From an uncultured Pseudomonadota bacterium (GTDB lineage Bacteria; Pseudomonadota; Gammaproteobacteria; Steroidobacterales; Steroidobacteraceae): a DNA stretch of 64,000 nucleotides. The translations under genes and the position numbers were made by a program. The stretch's first letter is position 1. Each line of letters starts with the position of its first letter. The notes below the pieces were generated by a model. It was not told the DNA's origin. It worked only from the letters and a program-made list of their open reading frames with translations, and did not search any database. This document shows, piece by piece, positions 9,660 to 23,493 of the stretch. The DNA is taken from NCBI GenBank assembly GCA_903879335.1, contig CAIRLC010000007.1, positions 62,001-126,000 of the forward strand. The letters run 5' to 3'.

Positions 9660-9666
9660 TGCATGG

Positions 9667-9705
9667 TTAGCATATTTATGCAACGATCGCGCAACTTTAT
9701 GCAAA
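9667..9705. promoter_or_regulatory. Tandem ARG boxes (ArgR operator)
   Basis: Two 18-bp sites, TTAGCATATTTATGCAAC (9667-9684) and CGCGCAACTTTATGCAAA (9688-9705), are separated by 3 bp, the spacing of paired ARG boxes in E. coli. Against TNTGNATWWWWATNCANA the first matches in most fixed positions with an all-A/T centre; the second has a perfect right half and a poor left half. They precede argR, so the operon is likely autoregulated by arginine-bound ArgR. This also argues against the ATG at 9663 as the argR start. Confidence 0.65.
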
Positions 9706-9728
9706 ATCAAGCCTTTCATAGCCCGGGT

Positions 9729-10172
9729 ATGCATCGCGCTCATGAGGAACGTCGTGAGGCGTTGCTGCGCATCGTTCGTGAAGGCGCGGTCGGCGGCCAA
9801 GCGGAGCTGGTGCGCCGTCTCAAGCAAGCCGGCTATGCCGTGACCCAATCTAGCGTTAGCCGGGACTTGCGCGACCTCGGCGTCGCCAAGGTCGGCGATC
9901 GGTATGTGGTGCCTAGCGAAACGCCGGCGCCGGCAGCCACTTTTAGCGCGGTCGCCGCATTTGTGGTCGCGGCCGTTCCGGCCGGGCCGCACCTCACGGT
10001 CGTGCGAACGACGGTGGGTTCGGCGCAGTCGGTCGCGTTTGCAATCGACCAAGGCCGATGGCCTGAGGTCGTCGGCACGATTTCAGGCGACGATACCGTA
10101 TTTGTCGCCACTCGCGATGAAGAGGCGCAACGCGCCTTCATTCATCGACTCCAATCACTTGCTATTCGATAA
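9729..10172 (+). CDS. argR: Arginine repressor ArgR
   Basis: A 147-residue ArgR with a winged-helix DNA-binding domain (about 1-68; RREALLRIVREGAVGGQAEL, recognition part TQSSVSRDLRDLGVAKV) and the C-terminal domain that binds arginine and forms hexamers (TVGSAQSVAFAIDQ, VVGTISGDDTVFVA). Length fits the family (about 150-156). The ATG at 9729 lies after the ARG boxes. It is the first gene of the operon it most likely represses, with argG 11 bp downstream. Confidence 0.93.
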   Translation: MHRAHEERREALLRIVREGAVGGQAELVRRLKQAGYAVTQSSVSRDLRDLGVAKVGDRYVVPSETPAPAATFSAVAAFVVAAVPAGPHLTVVRTTVGSAQSVAFAIDQGRWPEVVGTISGDDTVFVATRDEEAQRAFIHRLQSLAIR

Positions 10173-10183
10173 AGGCCGCTTCC

Positions 10184-11416
10184 ATGTCTACTGAACATCA
10201 GGGCTCAGCGCCCATTCTTCTGGCGTTTTCCGGCGGCCTTGATACATCTTTTTGCGTGCCCTGGCTGAAAGAAACCTATGGCCGCCCAGTCATTACCGTC
10301 ACCGTCGATACCGGCGGTATTGACGCGGCAGCCGCAGCCACGCTGGAGCAAAGAGCTAAAGAACTTGGCGCGATGGAACACCATATCGTGGCCGCGAAAG
10401 GGGCCTATTTCGATCGCGTCTTGCGCTACTTGCTGATTGGCAACGCACGTCGGGGACAGATGTATCCGTTCTGCGTTGGCGCGGAGCGCGTCTTGCAGGC
10501 GCAAATGATCGCCGAAATGGCCAAATCACTCGGCACTGCGTCGGTGGCGCACGGCTGCACCGCCGCTGGCAATGACCAAGTTCGATTTGAAGTCGCGCTG
10601 CGCACCTTAGCGCCGGGGCTCGAGATCATTGCGCCGGTTCGCGACCGTGCATTCAAGCGCCCCGAGCAACTGGCGTTCCTCGAAGAGCGAAAGCTCCCTA
10701 TTCCGCCCTACGGCGCCGCATATTCAGTGAATCGAGGGCTCTGGGGCGTCACAATCGGCGGCAAAGAAACGCTGACCTCTGATGGCAGTATTCCGGATAA
10801 CGCGTGGGTATTAACTCGGGATGCATTTACACACCCAAAGGCTCCAGAACAGCATGTCATCGGCTTCACTCAAGGTGTGCCCACCTCGCTCGATGGCGTC
10901 GCGCTAGACCCGGTGACACTGATCGAATCACTTGAGGTCTTGGCATCAGCATTTGGGATCGGTCGAGGCATCCACTTAGGCGACACCGTCATCGGCACCA
11001 AAGGGCGCGTTGCATTCGAAGCGCCAGCCGCAGAGGTGCTGATCACCGCTCACCGTGAACTTGAGAAACTGGTGCTCACCGGGCGCCAGTCGCGCATCAA
11101 AGAACTGGTCGCCGCGCCGTATGGTGATTTGGTTCACGAAGGACATCATCTGGACCCGGTCTGTCGCGACATCGAAGCCCTGCTCGTCTCTTCGCAACAA
11201 CGCGTCACCGGCGACGTGAAAGTTCTATTCCGTCCCGGCAGCTGCTTCGTTGAGGGCGTCACCTCTCCATGGTCTCTGATGGCAGCATCTAAGGGCGTAT
11301 ATGGCGAATCGGCCGGGGAGTGGTCTCCCGCCGATGCGCTCGGCTACTCAAAAATGCTCGCGCTAACCGGCATGTTCCACACGCGCGCTGGTCAACAAGC
11401 TGGGAGTCAGTCATGA
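10184..11416 (+). CDS. argG: Argininosuccinate synthase
   Basis: A 410-residue cytosolic enzyme joining citrulline and aspartate with ATP to give argininosuccinate. The PP-loop FSGGLDTS (15-22) binds ATP; AHGCTAAGNDQVRFE and the GKETLTSDGS region line the substrate pocket. Its sequence looks closer to the roughly 400-residue argG type of Bacteroidetes-like arginine clusters than to enterobacterial ArgG (from memory, not aligned). The stop overlaps the next start (ATGA at 11413-11416), so it is translationally coupled to the unknown gene. Confidence 0.94.
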   Translation: MSTEHQGSAPILLAFSGGLDTSFCVPWLKETYGRPVITVTVDTGGIDAAAAATLEQRAKELGAMEHHIVAAKGAYFDRVLRYLLIGNARRGQMYPFCVGAERVLQAQMIAEMAKSLGTASVAHGCTAAGNDQVRFEVALRTLAPGLEIIAPVRDRAFKRPEQLAFLEERKLPIPPYGAAYSVNRGLWGVTIGGKETLTSDGSIPDNAWVLTRDAFTHPKAPEQHVIGFTQGVPTSLDGVALDPVTLIESLEVLASAFGIGRGIHLGDTVIGTKGRVAFEAPAAEVLITAHRELEKLVLTGRQSRIKELVAAPYGDLVHEGHHLDPVCRDIEALLVSSQQRVTGDVKVLFRPGSCFVEGVTSPWSLMAASKGVYGESAGEWSPADALGYSKMLALTGMFHTRAGQQAGSQS

Positions 11417-12486
11417 AGTCCGTCGTCGTTGACAAAATCGCATCCATTACCCAAGCGCTTGGCCTGAAGCATGAGTTGCGGATCTCGGCAGACATTCCCT
11501 GCGAGGAAGGCGTTGTTATTGTCGTCGAGGTGCTAAATAACAAGAACACCTACAACTCTTTAGAACTAACCTCAGGCCGAATGGCTAAAGTCACCAAGGG
11601 CGATATCGTCGTTGGCGCACTCGGGCACCGTAAGGCACTCTTTGGTTACTCCGGGCACGTTCCTGAGGCACTGAAGCCTGGCGCTATCATTCAAATGCTG
11701 AATATCGGCGGCGTACTCGGCATTTGCGACTCGGTCAATCCGGACAAAGGTCGCCCGTTCGATTGTCGCGTTTTGGGCGTCGTGCTGCATTTCCCCTTTC
11801 TGGGTGAACGCATTGGCGTTCCTGCGCGTATTGGCTACCGCAAACTTGAGCAAAGCGTCACGGTCGACACCCAAGGCGTGCCCGTTGTTGCCCTTGCTGG
11901 CACCTGCATGGAGGCAGGCAAAACGGCAGCTGCGTGTTCCATGATCGCTCGGATGCGTCATCGTGGACTCAATGTGCATGCTTTCAAGGCAACGGGCGTT
12001 TCACTGCGCCGAGACATTCTCGCGTTCGAGGATTCCGGAGCCCGCAAGACAATGATCTTTACCGACTTCGGAGTCGGCACAACGACCGCCGCTGTCGGCC
12101 CTGCGCTGACACGGGCGATGTTGTCTGAAATGGCTGTCGGCCAGCCAGATATCATTGTGTTCGAACTGGGCGACGGTCTACTCGGCACCTATGGCGTTGA
12201 AGCCATTTTGGCGGCTGATGATATTCGGCAGTCCCTGACTGCCGTCGTGTTGTCGGCGAACGATCCTGTGGCTGCATGGGGTGGCGTTAAACTATTGCGC
12301 GAACGCTTTGGCATCGAGCCGGCCGCCGTGACCGGACCATCGACCGACAATCAAGTTGGCGTTGATATTATTCAGCAGCAGATGAGCGTCACAGCCATCA
12401 ACGCCATTACGTCTGGCGCCGAACTCGGCGACCATCTCATCGCTACGGTGGGTCTGGCGGATAAATTTCCGGTGAAAGCGCAGTGA
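11413..12486 (+). CDS. Unknown P-loop protein embedded in the arginine operon (DUF1611-like motif layout)
   Basis: A 357-residue soluble protein. Residues 1-155 form a beta-rich domain with a Gly-rich centre (VVGALGHRKALFGYSGHVPE). Residues 156-357 look like a P-loop fold with Walker A GTCMEAGKT (163-171), FKATG (191-195), a Walker-B-like DIIVFELGDG (246-255) and VVLSANDP (278-285). The order GTxC..GK, (K/R)ATG, D(I)I.E.G.G matches my recollection of DUF1611, a family reported to contain the D-glutamate N-acetyltransferase DgcN. It overlaps argG (ATGA) and argC (GTGA), so it must be made with them. The operon lacks an acylglutamate-forming enzyme, so an acyltransferase role is a good hypothesis. 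The ATG at 11413 is chosen for that coupling. Confidence 0.8.
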   Translation: MKSVVVDKIASITQALGLKHELRISADIPCEEGVVIVVEVLNNKNTYNSLELTSGRMAKVTKGDIVVGALGHRKALFGYSGHVPEALKPGAIIQMLNIGGVLGICDSVNPDKGRPFDCRVLGVVLHFPFLGERIGVPARIGYRKLEQSVTVDTQGVPVVALAGTCMEAGKTAAACSMIARMRHRGLNVHAFKATGVSLRRDILAFEDSGARKTMIFTDFGVGTTTAAVGPALTRAMLSEMAVGQPDIIVFELGDGLLGTYGVEAILAADDIRQSLTAVVLSANDPVAAWGGVKLLRERFGIEPAAVTGPSTDNQVGVDIIQQQMSVTAINAITSGAELGDHLIATVGLADKFPVKAQ

Positions 12487-13550
12487 GCGGGACCAGCGGC
12501 ACCCCAACACTCGTACTCGGCGGCACCGGGTATGTTGCCGGTGAGCTCCTGCGGTTGATCGCAGGCCACCCGCGACTGCACTTGGCTGGCATATTATCCG
12601 ACTCAAAACCCGGCGAGCGCGTCGCGACAGCATTTCCTCATCTCGCTGTTGCTTATCCAGACACAACGTATCTGTCCTTGGAGTCCACCGAGGAATTGAT
12701 CCGTACAACGCCGGAGCTGGCGGTACTTGCGGCAGCACCGCACGGTGTCTCCGCTGCGCTCATTGATCGATTATTGACGGTCGCTGAGTCGGCGGGGAAT
12801 CGCCTGCGTGTTGTTGATATCTCAGCGGATTATCGATTTACACAGGCCGAGGCCTACCAAGCCGTCTATAAACATGCACACGGCGCTGCACATCGGCTGC
12901 AGCAATTCACCTGCGCGTTACCCGAGCATTTGAGCCGCCTGAATACGCCATACGTCGCGCACCCAGGTTGTTTCGCAACAGCCATGTTGCTCGCGCTTGT
13001 GCCACTCATGGCGCTGCAATTGGTGGAACCGGATTTTTACGTCAGTGGCATTACCGGCAGCACCGGATCAGGGCGCAATCCCGTCGAGGGCACGCACCAT
13101 CCACGTCGACACAGTGACCTGTACAGCTATGGCGCGCTCGCCCATCGACACGCTCCCGAAGTCGTCGGCATTGTTGAACGTCTCACCGGACACACCGCGC
13201 GGTTGCATTTCGTACCGCACTCTGGCCCGTTTGCGCGCGGTATTCACGCGACCACTCAAGCACGACTGATTCGCCCGATGTCGAGCGGTGAAGTCCGCGA
13301 AGCGCTAGCTGCGTTTTATGCTGACCAGCCATTCGTGCGTGTCTTGGAAGAGGCGCCGCGCATGAAAGATATCGTTGGCACCAATTACGCCCAAATAACG
13401 GCCGCTGCTGACGGGCACTCGATAGCGGTGATGAGCGTCATCGACAACTTAACCAAAGGCGCTGCCGGCGGTGCCATTCAGTGGCTGAACCGTCTTTATG
13501 GCTGGGATCAGACCCTCGGACTGACCCTGCCAGCGAGCGGCTGGACTTGA
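12483..13550 (+). CDS. argC: N-acyl-gamma-glutamyl-phosphate reductase
   Basis: A 355-residue NADPH-dependent reductase turning N-acyl-glutamyl-5-phosphate into the semialdehyde. Rossmann motif GGTGYVAG (13-20), catalytic Cys163 in HPGCFATA, and the dimerisation region GSTGSGRNPVEGTHHP are all present. GTG start overlapping the TGA of the P-loop gene. Length is near the usual 340-350. Whether the acyl group is acetyl or succinyl cannot be told from this gene. Confidence 0.94.
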   Translation: MSGTSGTPTLVLGGTGYVAGELLRLIAGHPRLHLAGILSDSKPGERVATAFPHLAVAYPDTTYLSLESTEELIRTTPELAVLAAAPHGVSAALIDRLLTVAESAGNRLRVVDISADYRFTQAEAYQAVYKHAHGAAHRLQQFTCALPEHLSRLNTPYVAHPGCFATAMLLALVPLMALQLVEPDFYVSGITGSTGSGRNPVEGTHHPRRHSDLYSYGALAHRHAPEVVGIVERLTGHTARLHFVPHSGPFARGIHATTQARLIRPMSSGEVREALAAFYADQPFVRVLEEAPRMKDIVGTNYAQITAAADGHSIAVMSVIDNLTKGAAGGAIQWLNRLYGWDQTLGLTLPASGWT

Positions 13551-13569: not shown

Positions 13570-14721
13570 ATGACTAACAACACTATCGCTAGCCATCTCG
13601 CTCAGGTATTTGCCCAATACCCATTAGAAGTTGTTTCCGCAGATGGCGTTTGGCTTGAAACGCGTGACGGCCGCCGTGTGCTCGATTACTACGGGGGACA
13701 CGCGGTTGCAGCGCTAGGTTACGGCCATCCACGTTGGGTGGAGGCACTCGAGCGCCAAGCACGGAGCGTATTGTTCCAAACTAACGCAATCCCGATGGAA
13801 ATTCGCGAGCGAGCCGCAGCCCGATTGGTCGCGTTTTCCGGGCTTGAGTTACCAGACGTCTTCTTCGTGAACTCCGGCGCAGAAGCCAATGAAAATGCGT
13901 TGCGCATTGCCTTCAAGCTGACCGGCCGGCGCACTGCCGTCGCCGTTGAACAGGGCTGGCACGGACGAACCGCAGCAGCTGGCGCAGTGACATTTGGTGC
14001 ACGCGAAAAATGGTACGGCTTCCCTCAGGCGCCTTTTGATGTGCACTGGGTATCGCGGAGCGATGCGGCTGCCGCGGTGGCTGGTATCGATACCGACACG
14101 GCATGCGTCATCATCGAGCCCGTTCAGGGACTCGCGGGCGCCTATGAGATCCCTCAGGATGTCTTGTCGGCGATCCGTCAGCGCTGCGATGAAGTTGGCG
14201 CACTACTTATATTCGATGAGGTGCAATGCGGTGTCGGCCGAACCGGTTTTGCGTTCGGGGCCACACGCGTAGGCGTCACGCCAGACATTCTTACGACCGC
14301 AAAAGCATTGGGCGCTGGCTTCCCAGTGTCAGCCATGCTGCTGTCCAAAGAAATTTCGTCACGGCTAAAGATTGAAGATATGGGAACCACCTTTGGCGGA
14401 GGACCCTTGGCCTGCGCCGTTGTTGAGACCGTGATTGATATCATCGAATCTGAAGGCTTATTGGCAAACGTACGCCAAATGTCCGACCTCATTCGAGAGC
14501 GCTGCATCGTCGGTCCAGTGACCGCAATCCAAGGAGCGGGTCTCCTTTTAGGCTTGCGGACCACCCGCCCCGCGAAAGAAGTTCAGAAGGAACTGCTGTC
14601 GCGGAACATCTTTGCGGGCACGGCAGCGGATCCGCATATTGTGCGCCTGCTTCCGCCTTTTACGATCGACAAATCCCACGTTGAGTTGCTTGCTCACACG
14701 CTGGCGGAGATTTCTCCATGA
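13570..14721 (+). CDS. argD: N-acylornithine aminotransferase
   Basis: A 383-residue class III aminotransferase with PLP. Lys245 in TTAKALGAGFPV forms the Schiff base; D216-E217 in IFDEVQCGVGRTG holds the pyridine nitrogen; NSGAEANENALR marks the phosphate site. It converts N-acylglutamate semialdehyde and glutamate to N-acylornithine and 2-oxoglutarate. Nineteen bases follow argC, and its stop overlaps the transcarbamylase start (ATGA), in keeping with metabolic order. Confidence 0.93.
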   Translation: MTNNTIASHLAQVFAQYPLEVVSADGVWLETRDGRRVLDYYGGHAVAALGYGHPRWVEALERQARSVLFQTNAIPMEIRERAAARLVAFSGLELPDVFFVNSGAEANENALRIAFKLTGRRTAVAVEQGWHGRTAAAGAVTFGAREKWYGFPQAPFDVHWVSRSDAAAAVAGIDTDTACVIIEPVQGLAGAYEIPQDVLSAIRQRCDEVGALLIFDEVQCGVGRTGFAFGATRVGVTPDILTTAKALGAGFPVSAMLLSKEISSRLKIEDMGTTFGGGPLACAVVETVIDIIESEGLLANVRQMSDLIRERCIVGPVTAIQGAGLLLGLRTTRPAKEVQKELLSRNIFAGTAADPHIVRLLPPFTIDKSHVELLAHTLAEISP

Positions 14722-15719
14722 GCTTATCCCGTTTCATGGACCTCGCTGACTTCTCGCCAGCTGAGGTTGAAGAACTGATCGCACTCGCAGACCGGCTGCA
14801 GCGGCATCCAGAGCCCAAAGCGTTGGACGGAAAAATCTTAGGTCTTGTATTCCTCAACCCGTCGTTACGCACCTTGGCTTCATTCCAAGCGGGCATGGCT
14901 CGCCTCGGTGGCTCATCCTTCGTCATCACACCTGGACAGGGAACTTGGGGACTTGAAACCCGTATGGGTGTTCGGATGGATGGGGCTGCTGCTGAGCACG
15001 TCCGTGAGGGATTGCCGGTCTTGGCATCCTTCTGCGATGCGCTTGGAATTCGGGCTTTTGCCGATGGCAAAGACCTGAATGCCGACATCGACGACAGCAC
15101 ATTTAAGTCAATGGCAGCATTGGTCGATAAGCCCTTTATCAATCTTGAGTCTGCCATCAATCATCCCTGCCAGGCCCTGGCGGATTGGAAGACACTGAAC
15201 GACTTGGCGATTGCGCCGCGTTCAAAATTCGTCCTTTCTTGGGTTCCTCATCCGCGCGCGCTACCGCTGGCCGTACCTGCAGCTGCGTTACACATGGCGG
15301 CGTTACGCGGTCATGACGTGGTCGTGGCTAGACCCGAGGGCTTTGCGCTACCGTCAGCCATCATGTATCGGGCCCGGGCAGCCGCCGCACTATCGGGTGG
15401 CTCAGTTTCCGAAACTAATGATCGTGCGGAGGCGATGCAGGGCGCGCAGGTGCTCTATGCCAAGGAGTGGGGCTGCACCTCGCACTACGGAGATGCAGCA
15501 ATGGATGCCAGGCTGCGCGCCGATTTCAGCCATTGGCAAGTCACTGAAGAGTCTTTTGCGGGCGCAATGGCGGATTGCCGACTGATGCACTGCCTCCCTG
15601 TGCGACGCAATGTCGCCGTGGCCGAGAACGTTCTTGACGGTCATCGCAGTGTGGTACTGAAGGAAGCGCATAACCGTTTGGTTGTGCAGATGGCGGTTTT
15701 ACATCGCTTACTCGCCTGA
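14718..15719 (+). CDS. argF': N-acylornithine carbamoyltransferase (acetyl or succinyl specificity open)
   Basis: A 333-residue transcarbamylase of the N-acetyl/N-succinylornithine type, not ordinary OTC. Carbamoyl-phosphate motif NPSLRT (47-52), HPCQ (149-152), the tryptophan-bearing loop TPGQGTWGLETRMG and the late CLPVRRN are family marks. At the position that sets acyl choice (Glu92 in the Xanthomonas acetylornithine enzyme, Pro90 in the Bacteroides succinylornithine enzyme) this protein has Ala92 (MDGAAAEH). SWVPHPRALPLAVP and PEGFAL resemble the succinyl enzyme. The product would be N-acylcitrulline, which needs a deacylase not encoded in the window. Confidence 0.9.
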   Translation: MSLSRFMDLADFSPAEVEELIALADRLQRHPEPKALDGKILGLVFLNPSLRTLASFQAGMARLGGSSFVITPGQGTWGLETRMGVRMDGAAAEHVREGLPVLASFCDALGIRAFADGKDLNADIDDSTFKSMAALVDKPFINLESAINHPCQALADWKTLNDLAIAPRSKFVLSWVPHPRALPLAVPAAALHMAALRGHDVVVARPEGFALPSAIMYRARAAAALSGGSVSETNDRAEAMQGAQVLYAKEWGCTSHYGDAAMDARLRADFSHWQVTEESFAGAMADCRLMHCLPVRRNVAVAENVLDGHRSVVLKEAHNRLVVQMAVLHRLLA

Positions 15720-15767: not shown

Positions 15768-16703
15768 ATGAACTATCGTCCCGAACAAGCCGTAGCAATC
15801 CGCGCCATGCGCAATGCGGCTCCGTACATTCGTATGTACAAAGGCAAAGTCTTTGTCGTCAAAGTTGGTGGAGCGATCTTTTCAAGCGAAGCGACAACTC
15901 GCGCGCTCGTTGAGCAGGTTGCGATCCTTCATCAAGTCGGTATCCGCGTGGTACTCGTCCACGGCGGTGGCCCTCAGCTGGATGAAATGCAGCGCTCTCT
16001 CGGAATTGAGCCGACCATGGTGGACGGTCGGCGAGTCACCGACGAGAAGACGATTGATGTGACAGTGATGGTGCTGAACGGCACACTGAATACCCGTCTG
16101 CTGACCATTTGCCGTGAACTCGGCATCAATGCTGTGGGCATTTCAGGTATCGACGGTGGCTTAGTTAAAGCCCAGAAGCGCGCACCGGTTCGTCGGGCCG
16201 ACGGCAAGACGATTGATTACGGCCAGGTTGGCGATGTCGAGTCGATTTCGCCGGATGTGCTGGAGAAGTTATTAGATGCCGGTTACATGCCTATCGTCAG
16301 CCCGCTGTCGTCGGACGACGAAGGCAAGGTCCTAAACATCAATGCCGATACAGTCGCCGCGAACATCGGCGCAGCTCTGGGCGCAGAAAAACTGCTGCTC
16401 TGCACGGGTGCTGCCGGCATCTTTGAAGATCTCGCAGATCCAAGCACCCTAGTGTCCTACACCGATTTGGCCGGGTTAAAGCGCTTAGAGGCAGCCGGCA
16501 GCTTCGCCGATGGCATGATGCCCAAAGCAAATGCGATTGAAGCCGCGATCCGCGGCGGCGTACGTCGCGTGCACGTCATTTCGTTCAAGTCGACCGACGC
16601 GCTGCTGGCTGAAATCTTTACGAATGAAGGCCTCGGCACACTCATCGTTGCAGATGTTAAGGCGCTGTCCGCCGCCGAGCAGCAACCTGAGGCCGCCACA
16701 TGA
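15768..16703 (+). CDS. argB: N-acylglutamate kinase
   Basis: A 311-residue amino-acid kinase phosphorylating N-acylglutamate. Motifs: VVKVGGAIFSS for nucleotide, LVHGGGPQLDEM for substrate, LNINADTVAANIGAALGA late. An N-terminal helix before the first strand (EQAVAIRAMRNAAPYIRMYKG) resembles the mobile helix of arginine-inhibited kinases, so feedback inhibition is likely. It is a stand-alone kinase without the acetyltransferase half fused in the Xanthomonas/Xylella bifunctional protein. A 48-bp AT-rich gap with an ARG-box-like half precedes it; its stop overlaps argH (ATGA). Confidence 0.93.
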   Translation: MNYRPEQAVAIRAMRNAAPYIRMYKGKVFVVKVGGAIFSSEATTRALVEQVAILHQVGIRVVLVHGGGPQLDEMQRSLGIEPTMVDGRRVTDEKTIDVTVMVLNGTLNTRLLTICRELGINAVGISGIDGGLVKAQKRAPVRRADGKTIDYGQVGDVESISPDVLEKLLDAGYMPIVSPLSSDDEGKVLNINADTVAANIGAALGAEKLLLCTGAAGIFEDLADPSTLVSYTDLAGLKRLEAAGSFADGMMPKANAIEAAIRGGVRRVHVISFKSTDALLAEIFTNEGLGTLIVADVKALSAAEQQPEAAT

Positions 16704-17890
16704 GCCGCCTCTGGGACAAGGGCGCACCTTTGGATGCTCGCGTCCTGCACTACACAGCCGGCGAGGATCACTCACTGGATGATCGACTGGTAGCCTATGA
16801 CGTTGAGGGCTCAATTGCGCATGCGCGTGTGCTCAATGCAGCAGGACTCTTGTCTGATGGCGATCTGAGCGTGCTCACTCAGGCACTGGGCGATATTGCT
16901 GCCGCTCACGCGCGTGGAGAGTGGCGCGTGACGTTGGAACAGGAAGATGGGCAGACCGCAATTGAGGGGCTTTTAACCGACAAAGTAGGAGCCGTTGGCG
17001 GCCGTATCCATTTGGGCCGTTCCCGCAATGACCAGGTCCTCACGGCGTTGCGCCTTTATTTGCGCGACGCTGTCGAGTCTTTACGTCACGGCGCGCATGC
17101 AGTAGCTGACGCGCTGCACGCTCTCGCGTCTCGTCACCCGAATGTCGAGTTGCCTGGCTATACGCACATGCAGCAGGCGATGCCATCCTCGGTCGCGCTC
17201 TGGGCGCAAGGCTTTGCCGCTGAGGTCCAAGATGACGCGGAGGGTCTTCAGAGCACCCAGCGCAGAATCGGGAAGAGCCCGCTTGGCTCAGCCGCAGGAT
17301 ACGGAACGCCAGGGCTCCCGATCGATCGTTCTGTAGCGATGACGGAGCTTGGATTTCCTGTTGTTCACGAACCGGTGACGGCCGTCCAACTCTCGCGCGG
17401 CAAGGCAGAGGCCCACGTGCTGTTTGAGGTTGCGTTGCTCATGACGGATCTCGGTCGGTTGGCCTCCGACCTGATGCTGTTTTATACACAAGAGTTTGCG
17501 TTCGTGACGCTACCGACGGCGTTCACTACCGGCTCGTCGATCATGCCGCAAAAGCGAAATCCGGACGTTTTCGAATTGATCCGTGGTCGGAGCATGTCAG
17601 CTCAAGCATGCTTGTCCGAAGCGTTGGGAATCATTGCGAAGTTGCCGTCGGGATACCAACGTGATCTGCAACTTCTGAAGGTTCCTCTGTTCAGGGGGAT
17701 TGATCTGGCGCTGTCGACTCTGGACATTCTTCCCTCGGCACTCGAGGGCGTGAGTTTCAAAGCGGACAATATCCGATTAGACGCCACGATCTACGCTGCA
17801 GAACAAGCCAATCGGATGGTTGTCGAGGAAGGTATTCCGTTTCGCGACGCCTATCGGCGAGTCGGCGAAAGTCTGTTTGGCAAGAAGTAG
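16700..17890 (+). CDS. argH: Argininosuccinate lyase, short C-terminus
   Basis: A 396-residue member of the fumarase/aspartase superfamily splitting argininosuccinate into arginine and fumarate. Conserved regions are complete: GRSRNDQ (106-112), YTHMQQAMP with catalytic His156, and the flexible loop signature GSSIMPQKRNP (278-288). The protein stops at IPFRDAYRRVGESLFGKK, about 60 residues short of the usual 455-460, lacking the last helical part. The active site lies in the retained part, so it is probably functional. It is the last gene of the operon and is followed by a hairpin. Confidence 0.92.
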   Translation: MSRLWDKGAPLDARVLHYTAGEDHSLDDRLVAYDVEGSIAHARVLNAAGLLSDGDLSVLTQALGDIAAAHARGEWRVTLEQEDGQTAIEGLLTDKVGAVGGRIHLGRSRNDQVLTALRLYLRDAVESLRHGAHAVADALHALASRHPNVELPGYTHMQQAMPSSVALWAQGFAAEVQDDAEGLQSTQRRIGKSPLGSAAGYGTPGLPIDRSVAMTELGFPVVHEPVTAVQLSRGKAEAHVLFEVALLMTDLGRLASDLMLFYTQEFAFVTLPTAFTTGSSIMPQKRNPDVFELIRGRSMSAQACLSEALGIIAKLPSGYQRDLQLLKVPLFRGIDLALSTLDILPSALEGVSFKADNIRLDATIYAAEQANRMVVEEGIPFRDAYRRVGESLFGKK

Positions 17891-22089: not shown

Positions 22090-23493
22090 ATGCGCCCAGT
22101 CTCAGTCCTTGCTTTCGCCTTGACCCTACCCCTGACCGCCCTCGCAGCGTCAGGCACCGGCCCGTCTTCTGCGGAGGCCAAGAGTGAAGCGCGGGAGCTG
22201 CTCGCGACCTCAGTCGCATTAGAAACTTCGATCGGCAAGGGTCAGGTTCCAAAACTCGCCAATATTTTGGCAGACCGTTTTCGCAAGGCGGGATTCCCGG
22301 AAGCCGATATCCACATCGTTCCATTCAAAGAAACCGCGTCATTAGTCGTCCGATATCGCGGATCGGGAGCGGGTGGTCACCCAATCGGATTTATGGCGCA
22401 TATGGACGTAGTTGCGGCAAATCGGTCGGATTGGAAGCGTGATCCGTTCACGCTCACCGAAGAAAACGGCTACTTCTTCGGCCGAGGCACACTGGACATC
22501 AAGAGTGAAATCGCGCTTATCACAGCGACGATGACTCGGCTGAGGCGGGAAGGCTTCGTACCCACTCGTGATCTGGTGGTGATTTTCAGCGGCGACGAGG
22601 AGACCGCTCAGGATACGATTGAGGACCTCGCCGCCCACCATCGCGATCTTATCGACGTCGAATTTGCGCTTAATGGTGACGGCGGTGGTGGGGCGCTGGA
22701 TGAAAAAACCGGCAAACCGTCCAGCTACGCTCTTCAAGGCGCCGAAAAATACTCAGTGGCGTTCGCACTCACGGCAACAAATCCAGGCGGGCACAGTTCT
22801 CGTCCCCGCCCAGACAATGCCATTTATGAGCTCGCCACCGCGCTCAAGTCGATCCAAGGCTACGGCTTCCCCGTAAAATGGAATGACTGGACCTTGGCCG
22901 ATCTCAAAGCCTCTAGCGAAACCGTCGGCGGCGAAACGGGAGCTTATTTAGCGCGTTTCGTCGCTAATCATGAGGATCAGGGCGCAATCGATGCACTGTC
23001 GCGGGACGGTGGTTATGTGGGCAAATTGCGGACAACGTGCGTCGCCACAATGCTGCAGGGCGGTCATGCCGAAAACGCGCTACCCCAATCCGCAACCGCA
23101 ACCATTAACTGCCGAGTTTTTCCAGGCACAAAGCCCGATGAGGTCCAAGAGACGCTGCAACTGTTGGCCGGTGGCGCCATCAAGATTGAGCGCAAATACG
23201 AGCCCATTCAGTCTGATCCCTCACCGCTACGAGCCGATGTCGTGGCTGCGGTAGAAAAAGCGGCTGCGGATTCGGTCGGGCAGACGGTTCGGGTGATTCC
23301 AGAACAGGTTCCCTATGCCACCGATGGTTCAGTCATGCGTAACCACGGCATCCCAACCTACGGAACCGAGAGCATCTTCACCAAAGACAGCGAAGACTTC
23401 GCGCACGGGCTGGATGAACGTATTCCAGTGGCCTCGTACTACAAAGGCCTCGTTTTCTGGGATTCGATCATTCACTCACTCGCGGGCAAGTGA
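22090..23493 (+). CDS. Exported M20 family metallopeptidase
   Basis: A 467-residue zinc peptidase with a signal peptide (residues 1-19, ending LTALAAS). Metal-binding motifs are clear: MAHMDVV (first His and catalytic Asp), GRGTLDIK (bridging Asp), SGDEETAQD (general-base Glu and metal Glu), and a late His in SEDFAHGLDERIP. The dimerisation lid follows GGHSSRPRPDN. Predicted periplasmic aminoacylase or dipeptidase. It is unlikely to be the missing ArgE of the arginine operon, because it is exported and distant. Transcribed divergently from the FAD dehydrogenase. Confidence 0.88.
   Translation: MRPVSVLAFALTLPLTALAASGTGPSSAEAKSEARELLATSVALETSIGKGQVPKLANILADRFRKAGFPEADIHIVPFKETASLVVRYRGSGAGGHPIGFMAHMDVVAANRSDWKRDPFTLTEENGYFFGRGTLDIKSEIALITATMTRLRREGFVPTRDLVVIFSGDEETAQDTIEDLAAHHRDLIDVEFALNGDGGGGALDEKTGKPSSYALQGAEKYSVAFALTATNPGGHSSRPRPDNAIYELATALKSIQGYGFPVKWNDWTLADLKASSETVGGETGAYLARFVANHEDQGAIDALSRDGGYVGKLRTTCVATMLQGGHAENALPQSATATINCRVFPGTKPDEVQETLQLLAGGAIKIERKYEPIQSDPSPLRADVVAAVEKAAADSVGQTVRVIPEQVPYATDGSVMRNHGIPTYGTESIFTKDSEDFAHGLDERIPVASYYKGLVFWDSIIHSLAGK

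Follow-up and report, generated by a model that had tools for sequence, protein, structure and literature searches.

The arginine operon analysed here raises the question of which protein forms the acylated glutamate at the head of the pathway. It lies in a stretch of 64,000 nucleotides (hereafter the window; GenBank assembly GCA_903879335.1, contig CAIRLC010000007.1, positions 62,001 to 126,000) from an uncultured gammaproteobacterium of the family Steroidobacteraceae, order Steroidobacterales. According to a scan with NCBIfam models, the operon genes cover each step from ArgB to ArgH other than deacylation, and neither an acylglutamate synthase nor a deacylase was found among the cluster genes. 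Between argG and argC lies an open reading frame (ORF) of 357 amino acids (gene X, 11413 to 12486, plus strand) containing the motifs GTCMEAGKT, FKATG and ELGDG. Its product is probably the N-acyl-L-glutamate synthase of the pathway, most likely an N-succinyl-L-glutamate synthase, an activity predicted from its place in the operon, its distribution relative to other synthases, the specificity residues of a neighbouring carbamoyltransferase and its modelled fold.

The cluster reads argR-argG-X-argC-argD-argF'-argB-argH. The ATG of X at 11413 lies inside an ATGA whose TGA closes argG at 11416, and the stop codon of X (TGA, 12484-12486) overlaps the GTG start of argC at 12483, so that X shares 4 nt with each neighbour. 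The operon contains no gene of the GNAT family. The ORF, its three motifs and both overlaps, as well as the lack of genes for acylglutamate formation and deacylation and the unfused argB, had been described in an initial annotation of the window and were all reproduced. Cluster genes were named by NCBIfam models, with ArgG, ArgC, ArgF', ArgB and ArgH scoring above the respective cut-offs and ArgR and ArgD below theirs:

9663..10172, plus strand: argR, arginine repressor, at the head of the cluster (TIGR01529, 110.5 bits, under the cut-off of 130.45; found at the same place in relatives)
10184..11416, plus strand: argG, argininosuccinate synthase (TIGR00032, 281.3 bits, cut-off 268.2)
11413..12486, plus strand: gene X, predicted P-loop N-acyl-(succinyl-)L-glutamate synthase (gene context, presence and absence, ArgF' residues, fold model)
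11413..11868, plus strand: N-terminal beta domain of X, residues 1-152 (predicted local distance difference test, pLDDT, of 91.2 in the model; best Foldseek E value 0.92, i.e. no PDB match)
11899..11925, plus strand: P-loop GTCMEAGKT of X, residues 163-171 (G163, M166, G169, K170 and T171 invariant in alignment A3, 47 sequences)
12483..13550, plus strand: argC, N-acyl-gamma-glutamyl-phosphate reductase (TIGR01850, 287.4 bits, cut-off 233.6)
13570..14721, plus strand: argD, acylornithine aminotransferase (TIGR00707, 307.3 bits, under the cut-off of 410.05)
14718..15719, plus strand: argF', N-acylornithine carbamoyltransferase, succinyl-type (PRK04523, 337.6 bits, cut-off 288; Ala, Pro and Ala at the Xanthomonas Glu92, Asn185 and Lys302 sites)
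14991..14993, plus strand: codon of Ala92 in argF', specificity site (alignment to the Xanthomonas enzyme)
15768..16703, plus strand: argB, N-acylglutamate kinase, 311 amino acids, no acetyltransferase fusion (TIGR00761, 220.4 bits, cut-off 151.3)
16700..17890, plus strand: argH, argininosuccinate lyase (TIGR00838, 303.6 bits, cut-off 279.5)

The association of X with arginine genes is maintained throughout the order. Among 60 genomes surveyed from the genus, family and order, the window's own genome included, X was matched at an E value of at most 0.001 in 50, and 48 of these carry strong homologues (E below 1e-100, 58 to 100% identity); the remaining two (G039 and G043) hold only relatives of 30-33% identity and were not counted as X-positive. 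Loci were inspected for 43 of the 48 strong homologues, and X stands between argG and argC in every one of them, which rules out a chance ORF, while the full eight-gene set is present in all 13 of these loci with long flanks. In public contigs, at least one arg gene adjoins X in all of the best 80 of 442 candidate loci; the titles of these 80, where informative, point mostly to Steroidobacteraceae or relatives of Steroidobacter; two are of Lysobacter type, and one metagenome-assembled genome labelled Klebsiella is probably misnamed. In a set of 134 loci where argG, X and argC share a strand (genomes can recur in this set), the exact 4-nt overlap of argG and X is common, not universal: with starts set by homology, it occurs in 46. 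Gaps shorter than 60 nt separate argG from X in 121 and X from argC in 128 of these 134 loci.

Beyond the order, X was traced by class-level and phylum-level searches. At class level, profile A1 matched 29 of 369 genomes; apart from members of the order, X itself is present in four genomes, which belong to three families and show 41 to 44% identity, the remaining matches being more distant (at most 122 bits). Three of these four loci read argD-argF'-argB-argH-argG-X-argC, and in one of them (L216) X and argC stand about 570 nt apart; the fourth reads argG-X-argC up to the end of its contig. At phylum level, profile A2 matched 25 of 398 genomes, most of them with E values around 1e-4 and confined to the P-loop. 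In a genome from a different class (G673), however, X is present at 72% identity in an argR-X-argC-argB cluster (L263:7089-10739). In a tree of 47 sequences, midpoint-rooted, with some long branches and a bootstrap that had not settled, the X of G673 falls inside an 11-row clade with the window X and its family members (support 100/99), its placement within that clade being weak (86/78 and 81/47). This nesting makes lateral transfer of X to G673 likely, and the arg cluster of G673 appears to have been acquired in this way from the window's family.

If X forms acylglutamate, it would be expected to stand in for the enzymes known to do so, and its distribution is consistent with such a role. No ArgJ (TIGR00120) was matched in any of the 60 genomes of the order (the control was matched in 10 of 14), and no ArgA was found above the cut-off of TIGR01890 in any of the 60, a model that was above cut-off in 1 of 14 controls. 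Strong TIGR01890 matches in these genomes break off close to where the kinase domain ends, and several X-positive genomes show weak matches to its GNAT part (22 to 40 bits, cut-off 202.85); in the window's own genome no weak match to that part was seen, only ArgB itself, at 152.8 bits against 202.85. PF04768, the NAT domain found in fused synthase-kinases (no match in 14 controls, its own hits at E 2e-39 or better), occurs in nine of the 60 genomes, that is in none of the 48 X-positive and in nine of the 12 X-negative ones. The three genomes lacking both (G045, G048 and G058) gave no TIGR01890 match, hence no ArgB was seen with that model, the one run for it in place of ArgB's own; they are probably arginine auxotrophs or users of an unrecognised route. 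Counted by genome, X alone occurs in 48, both in 0, the NAT domain alone in 9 and neither in 3 (Fisher p 1.5e-8); counted by family, the same categories hold 8, 0, 6 and 2 (Fisher p 0.007), the latter value being the fairer one since genomes are not independent.

The five X-positive genomes outside the order likewise lack ArgJ (0 of 5) and TIGR01890 matches above cut-off (0 of 5), PF04768 having been run within the order. X thus belongs to arg operons, is present where other synthases were not found, and never co-occurred in one genome with those searched (ArgJ, ArgA above cut-off and fused NAT). The initial annotation had put X forward as a candidate stand-in for the acylglutamate synthase that the operon lacks, had suggested a survey against the known synthases and had held that an argA or argJ elsewhere in the genome would speak against the proposal. 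The survey bears out mutual exclusion and strengthens the proposal, whose enzymatic content stays a prediction from sequence, and model searches of the window's own genome for ArgA, ArgJ or a fused synthase found none.

In the same genome, 19 GNAT matches trace to 18 distinct ORFs. Within the E-limits applied, ArgA models matched none of them, and a GNAT synthase elsewhere in the genome was dropped as a candidate on that ground. These 18 genes nevertheless give some room to the explanation that an unrecognised GNAT makes acylglutamate and that X serves as a P-loop nucleoside triphosphatase (NTPase) in an accessory or regulatory role, or as an acylcitrulline deacylase. P-loop NTPases are frequently accessory; amide hydrolysis, on the other hand, requires no P-loop, which counts against the deacylase version. 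Bacteroidetes are proposed to employ a GNAT at the acylglutamate step (PMC9026213). However, X is missing exactly where another synthase was found, and the window operon itself is devoid of a GNAT gene, so that this explanation appears highly improbable.

The identity of the acyl group may be read from the carbamoyltransferase encoded beside X. In the PDB, the window ArgF' is best matched by the N-acetylornithine carbamoyltransferase of Xanthomonas and by variants of that enzyme at position 92; the window protein has Ala where the Xanthomonas wild type has Glu92, and PDB entry 3l02 bears Ala at this site, as read from the alignment. In the available part of PMC4581275, acetyl enzymes are characterized by Glu92, Asn185 and Lys302, and succinyl enzymes by A/S/P/V/Q, P and V/I/E at these sites. 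According to PMC7311316, specificity is switched by a single residue, position 90 of BT3717 (taken here as the Xanthomonas Glu92 site), where S, P, A or V denotes succinyl. Among 94 X-positive loci of the order, one of which was unread and which contain 85 distinct full-length ArgF' sequences, the Glu92 site is Ala and the Asn185 site Pro in 93 of 93, the window's succinylornithine-type pair. The three readable X-positive loci of other families have Pro, Pro and Val at the Glu92 site, Pro at the Asn185 site and Glu at the Lys302 site. In X-negative operons, Glu92 and Asn185 are retained in seven of seven, the Lys302 site being Lys in six and Gln in one. In every readable X-positive locus this last site is occupied by a residue other than Lys, mostly by Ala, which lies outside the published set.

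In 96 of 96 readable X-positive loci, both the Glu92 site and the Asn185 site thus carry succinyl-type residues. These key-site residues beside X favour succinyl over acetyl, and the acyl group in X operons is more likely to be succinyl. The initial annotation had left the choice at acetyl or succinyl, of which the succinyl half gains from the 96 loci and the acetyl half becomes less likely. If X were instead an N-acetyl-L-glutamate synthase with a new fold, the presence and absence pattern would suit it equally, since that pattern fits either acyl group, and PMC11747546 mentions an enzyme that N-acetylates D-glutamate (EC 2.3.1.312); against the ArgF' residues, however, such an enzyme is very unlikely.

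The operons of X-negative relatives show what an arginine cluster of this order contains when a fused synthase is used. Eight such loci were sampled from the nine NAT-positive genomes (G054 was not included). All eight contain the ArgB-NAT fusion, argC and argH, and seven contain argF' and argG, the eighth beginning at a contig end. In all eight, an argE' homologue adjoins the fusion, and the two of these homologues that were scanned both pass PRK08737. In X operons, by comparison, a BLAST search with 19 M20 queries found no M20 ORF among the X-positive loci, many of which have short flanks; an M20 ORF lies more than 4 kb beyond the X operon in the loci of two relatives and likewise in the window.

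The M20 hydrolase of the window (22090-23493) has a signal-peptide-like start and passes PRK09133, as one of six such genes in the genome; it is not likely to be the arginine deacylase. Altogether 16 M20 ORFs were scanned in the window's own genome: one exceeds the cut-offs of DapE models, six that of PRK09133 and three that of TIGR01891 (general amidohydrolase); two are dipeptidase-like at scores under the cut-off, and the other four have no match at E 1e-30. Secretion-like starts were noted by eye in many of them. None scored above the cut-off of an ArgE model, so that an ArgE elsewhere in this genome was rejected, and DapE is the one ORF above a desuccinylase cut-off.

Because no desuccinylase was found in the X operons, X may alternatively be conceived as an ArgJ-like transsuccinylase, which would take the succinyl group off N-succinylcitrulline (or succinylornithine), hand it to glutamate and thereby close a cycle, replacing both synthase and deacylase. 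The presence of argE' beside the fusion in all eight X-negative loci, set against X operons in which no M20 gene was found, the lack of an ORF above the ArgE cut-off among the 16, and the position of X next to argG, whose substrate is citrulline, would all accord with recycling of this kind. On the other hand, the genome does possess the DapE desuccinylase, and clustering of X with argR, argB and argC in G673, the other arg genes of which were not located, favours the glutamate end of the pathway. To our knowledge, no P-loop protein performs such an acyl transfer, and this alternative is considered unlikely.

The predicted fold of X differs from those of the known synthases. X has no NCBIfam match at an E value of at most 0.01 and Pfam matches only below threshold; it lacks the kinase and GNAT domains of classical ArgA, with no TIGR01890 or GNAT match, and it is not matched by the ArgJ model TIGR00120. 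The initial annotation had called it DUF1611-like; as a statement of membership this is rejected, the DUF1611 model (PF07755) reaching 15.6 bits over the P-loop region only, under the Pfam gathering score of 25. Four members of the X clade from other families score 12.6 to 16.8 bits, and two further members from the order gave no DUF1611 match at E up to 1. Neither X nor profile A1 found anything in the PDB below E 0.9 by sequence, and the best match of the 47-sequence profile was dethiobiotin synthetase (3fgn, E 5e-4 over about 50 residues).

An AlphaFold2 model built from the alignment of 47 relatives has a mean pLDDT of 95.9 and a predicted template modelling score (pTM) of 0.92. With this model Foldseek retrieved P-loop proteins from the PDB, including signal recognition particle GTPases, dethiobiotin synthetase (3of5, E 2e-6, TM 0.40), HypB and DUF1611. 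The comparison with a DUF1611 structure that the initial annotation had called for yielded a partial alignment to 2obn (E 1.5e-5, TM 0.39, about 235 columns of 357 residues), which points to kinship of the P-loop domain and does not extend over the whole chain, the N-terminal domain being unmatched. When its 152 residues were modelled alone, no PDB chain was better than the E value of 0.92 given above. The model of X thus combines a P-loop domain akin to those of dethiobiotin synthetase and DUF1611 with a beta domain that has no PDB match. R73, K170, T171, K192, D201, T224 and E251 are identical in all 47 aligned sequences, and D218 and D284 are conserved in at least 90% of them.

From these observations we infer the reaction, its donor and the acting deacylase. 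X would transfer a succinyl group, probably from succinyl-CoA, to the amino group of L-glutamate, most likely by binding both substrates with the P-loop holding the phosphate of the cofactor. ATP-driven activation of free succinate at the P-loop would be a fair alternative, since dethiobiotin synthetase, one of the nearest folds, activates a carboxylate-like group, a carbamate, with ATP. ArgB, ArgC, ArgD and the succinylornithine-type ArgF' would then carry the succinylated intermediates to succinylcitrulline, from which an unlinked desuccinylase, perhaps DapE of the lysine pathway, or an unrecognised hydrolase would free citrulline for ArgG and ArgH; alternatively, X itself may recycle the succinyl group. 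On balance, X may well represent a new fold class, a P-loop N-succinyl-L-glutamate synthase with a novel beta domain, operating either with a DapE shared with lysine synthesis or as a transsuccinylase.

Several observations weigh against the assignment of X as a synthase of succinylglutamate. The operon is without a deacylase as well as a synthase, and X could therefore deacylate or carry out both steps. The Lys302 site of ArgF' is Ala in the window and in 80 of 93 X-positive loci of the order (Val in 13), and Ala is absent from the published set V/I/E. Most of the 18 GNAT ORFs of the window's genome have no family match, and a divergent ArgA2-type GNAT may be among them, as the comparison was made with ArgA models. 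Moreover, many of the surveyed genomes are metagenome-assembled, the nearest solved folds of X are ATPases and GTPases, and the sub-threshold resemblance to the DUF1611 P-loop is its sole sequence link to known glutamate acyltransferases.

X also has relatives outside arginine operons. In the tree of 47, the 23 arg-operon sequences form one clade (98/97), which is joined to a clade of eight (100/99), and the 16 more distant sequences fall outside both. The sister family, at 25-29% identity to X in alignment A3, is exemplified by loci L043:5824-8661, L045:8399-10603 and L264:9133-11341. An M20 hydrolase adjoins the gene in all eight of its loci, detected by Pfam in L264 and by BLAST in the other seven, the neighbours of which share 56 to 100% identity with that of L045, itself one of the seven. 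Two of these hydrolases (L043 and L264) were scanned with NCBIfam and resemble glutamate carboxypeptidase models below cut-off, and the L043 locus additionally contains a flavin-reductase-domain protein. The sister family appears to be a second uncharacterised pair of P-loop protein and hydrolase, an arrangement that would suit acyl transfer with a partnered deacylase. In a third, more distant group (L049:7083-9864, L224:8690-11454 and L265:9118-11753), ABC-transporter genes lie alongside in the three loci scanned, with a porin as well in L224.

The opening step of arginine synthesis was reinvented on several occasions, and every class added to the list fills gaps in predicted auxotrophies. 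According to the models searched, 48 of the 60 genomes of the order and five outside it are without an acylglutamate enzyme despite the remaining operon. Were the assignment of X correct, it would name a committed first step that current Pfam and NCBIfam models miss, add a fold for acylglutamate formation and extend succinylated arginine synthesis beyond Bacteroidetes. The open-access PMC literature, as far as its texts were accessible and with preprints outside this scope, yielded no P-loop protein assigned to the acylglutamate step and no relevant paper on DUF1611 or DgcN; PMC5764234 and PMC5554518, in the parts available, offer general background only.

Among known systems, the closest in predicted reaction is ArgA2 of Bacteroidetes (BT3761), a GNAT proposed as an N-succinylglutamate synthase in the available portions of PMC9026213 and PMC7311316. 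It resembles X in its predicted reaction, its place in an arginine operon and the presence of a succinylornithine carbamoyltransferase, but X consists of a P-loop and a beta domain with no GNAT match. New relative to this GNAT route, which had already been proposed in Bacteroidetes, are the protein family, its fold and its setting in Gammaproteobacteria. The Xanthomonas-type fused synthase-kinase (ArgB-NAT, PF04768) fills the same pathway slot and forms the alternative operon of the same order; its operons differ in having the NAT domain on ArgB, an acetyl-type ArgF' and argE', and the fusion was never found with X in the 60 genomes. ArgJ, the ornithine acetyltransferase, likewise takes over this step in the absence of ArgA, but was matched in none of the 65 genomes searched.

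As regards fold, dethiobiotin synthetase (BioD) provides one of the closest solved structures and the best profile match; it is, however, a protein of about 220 residues from another pathway, without the extra beta domain and with 13-16% identity to X in structural alignments. DUF1611 proteins share a P-loop domain of the same broad class, although X scores under the gathering score and its N-terminal domain alone has no PDB counterpart. DgcN, a member of DUF1611, is reported to act as a D-glutamate N-acetyltransferase. The accessible part of PMC11747546 mentions an enzyme of that activity (EC 2.3.1.312) without reference to DUF1611.

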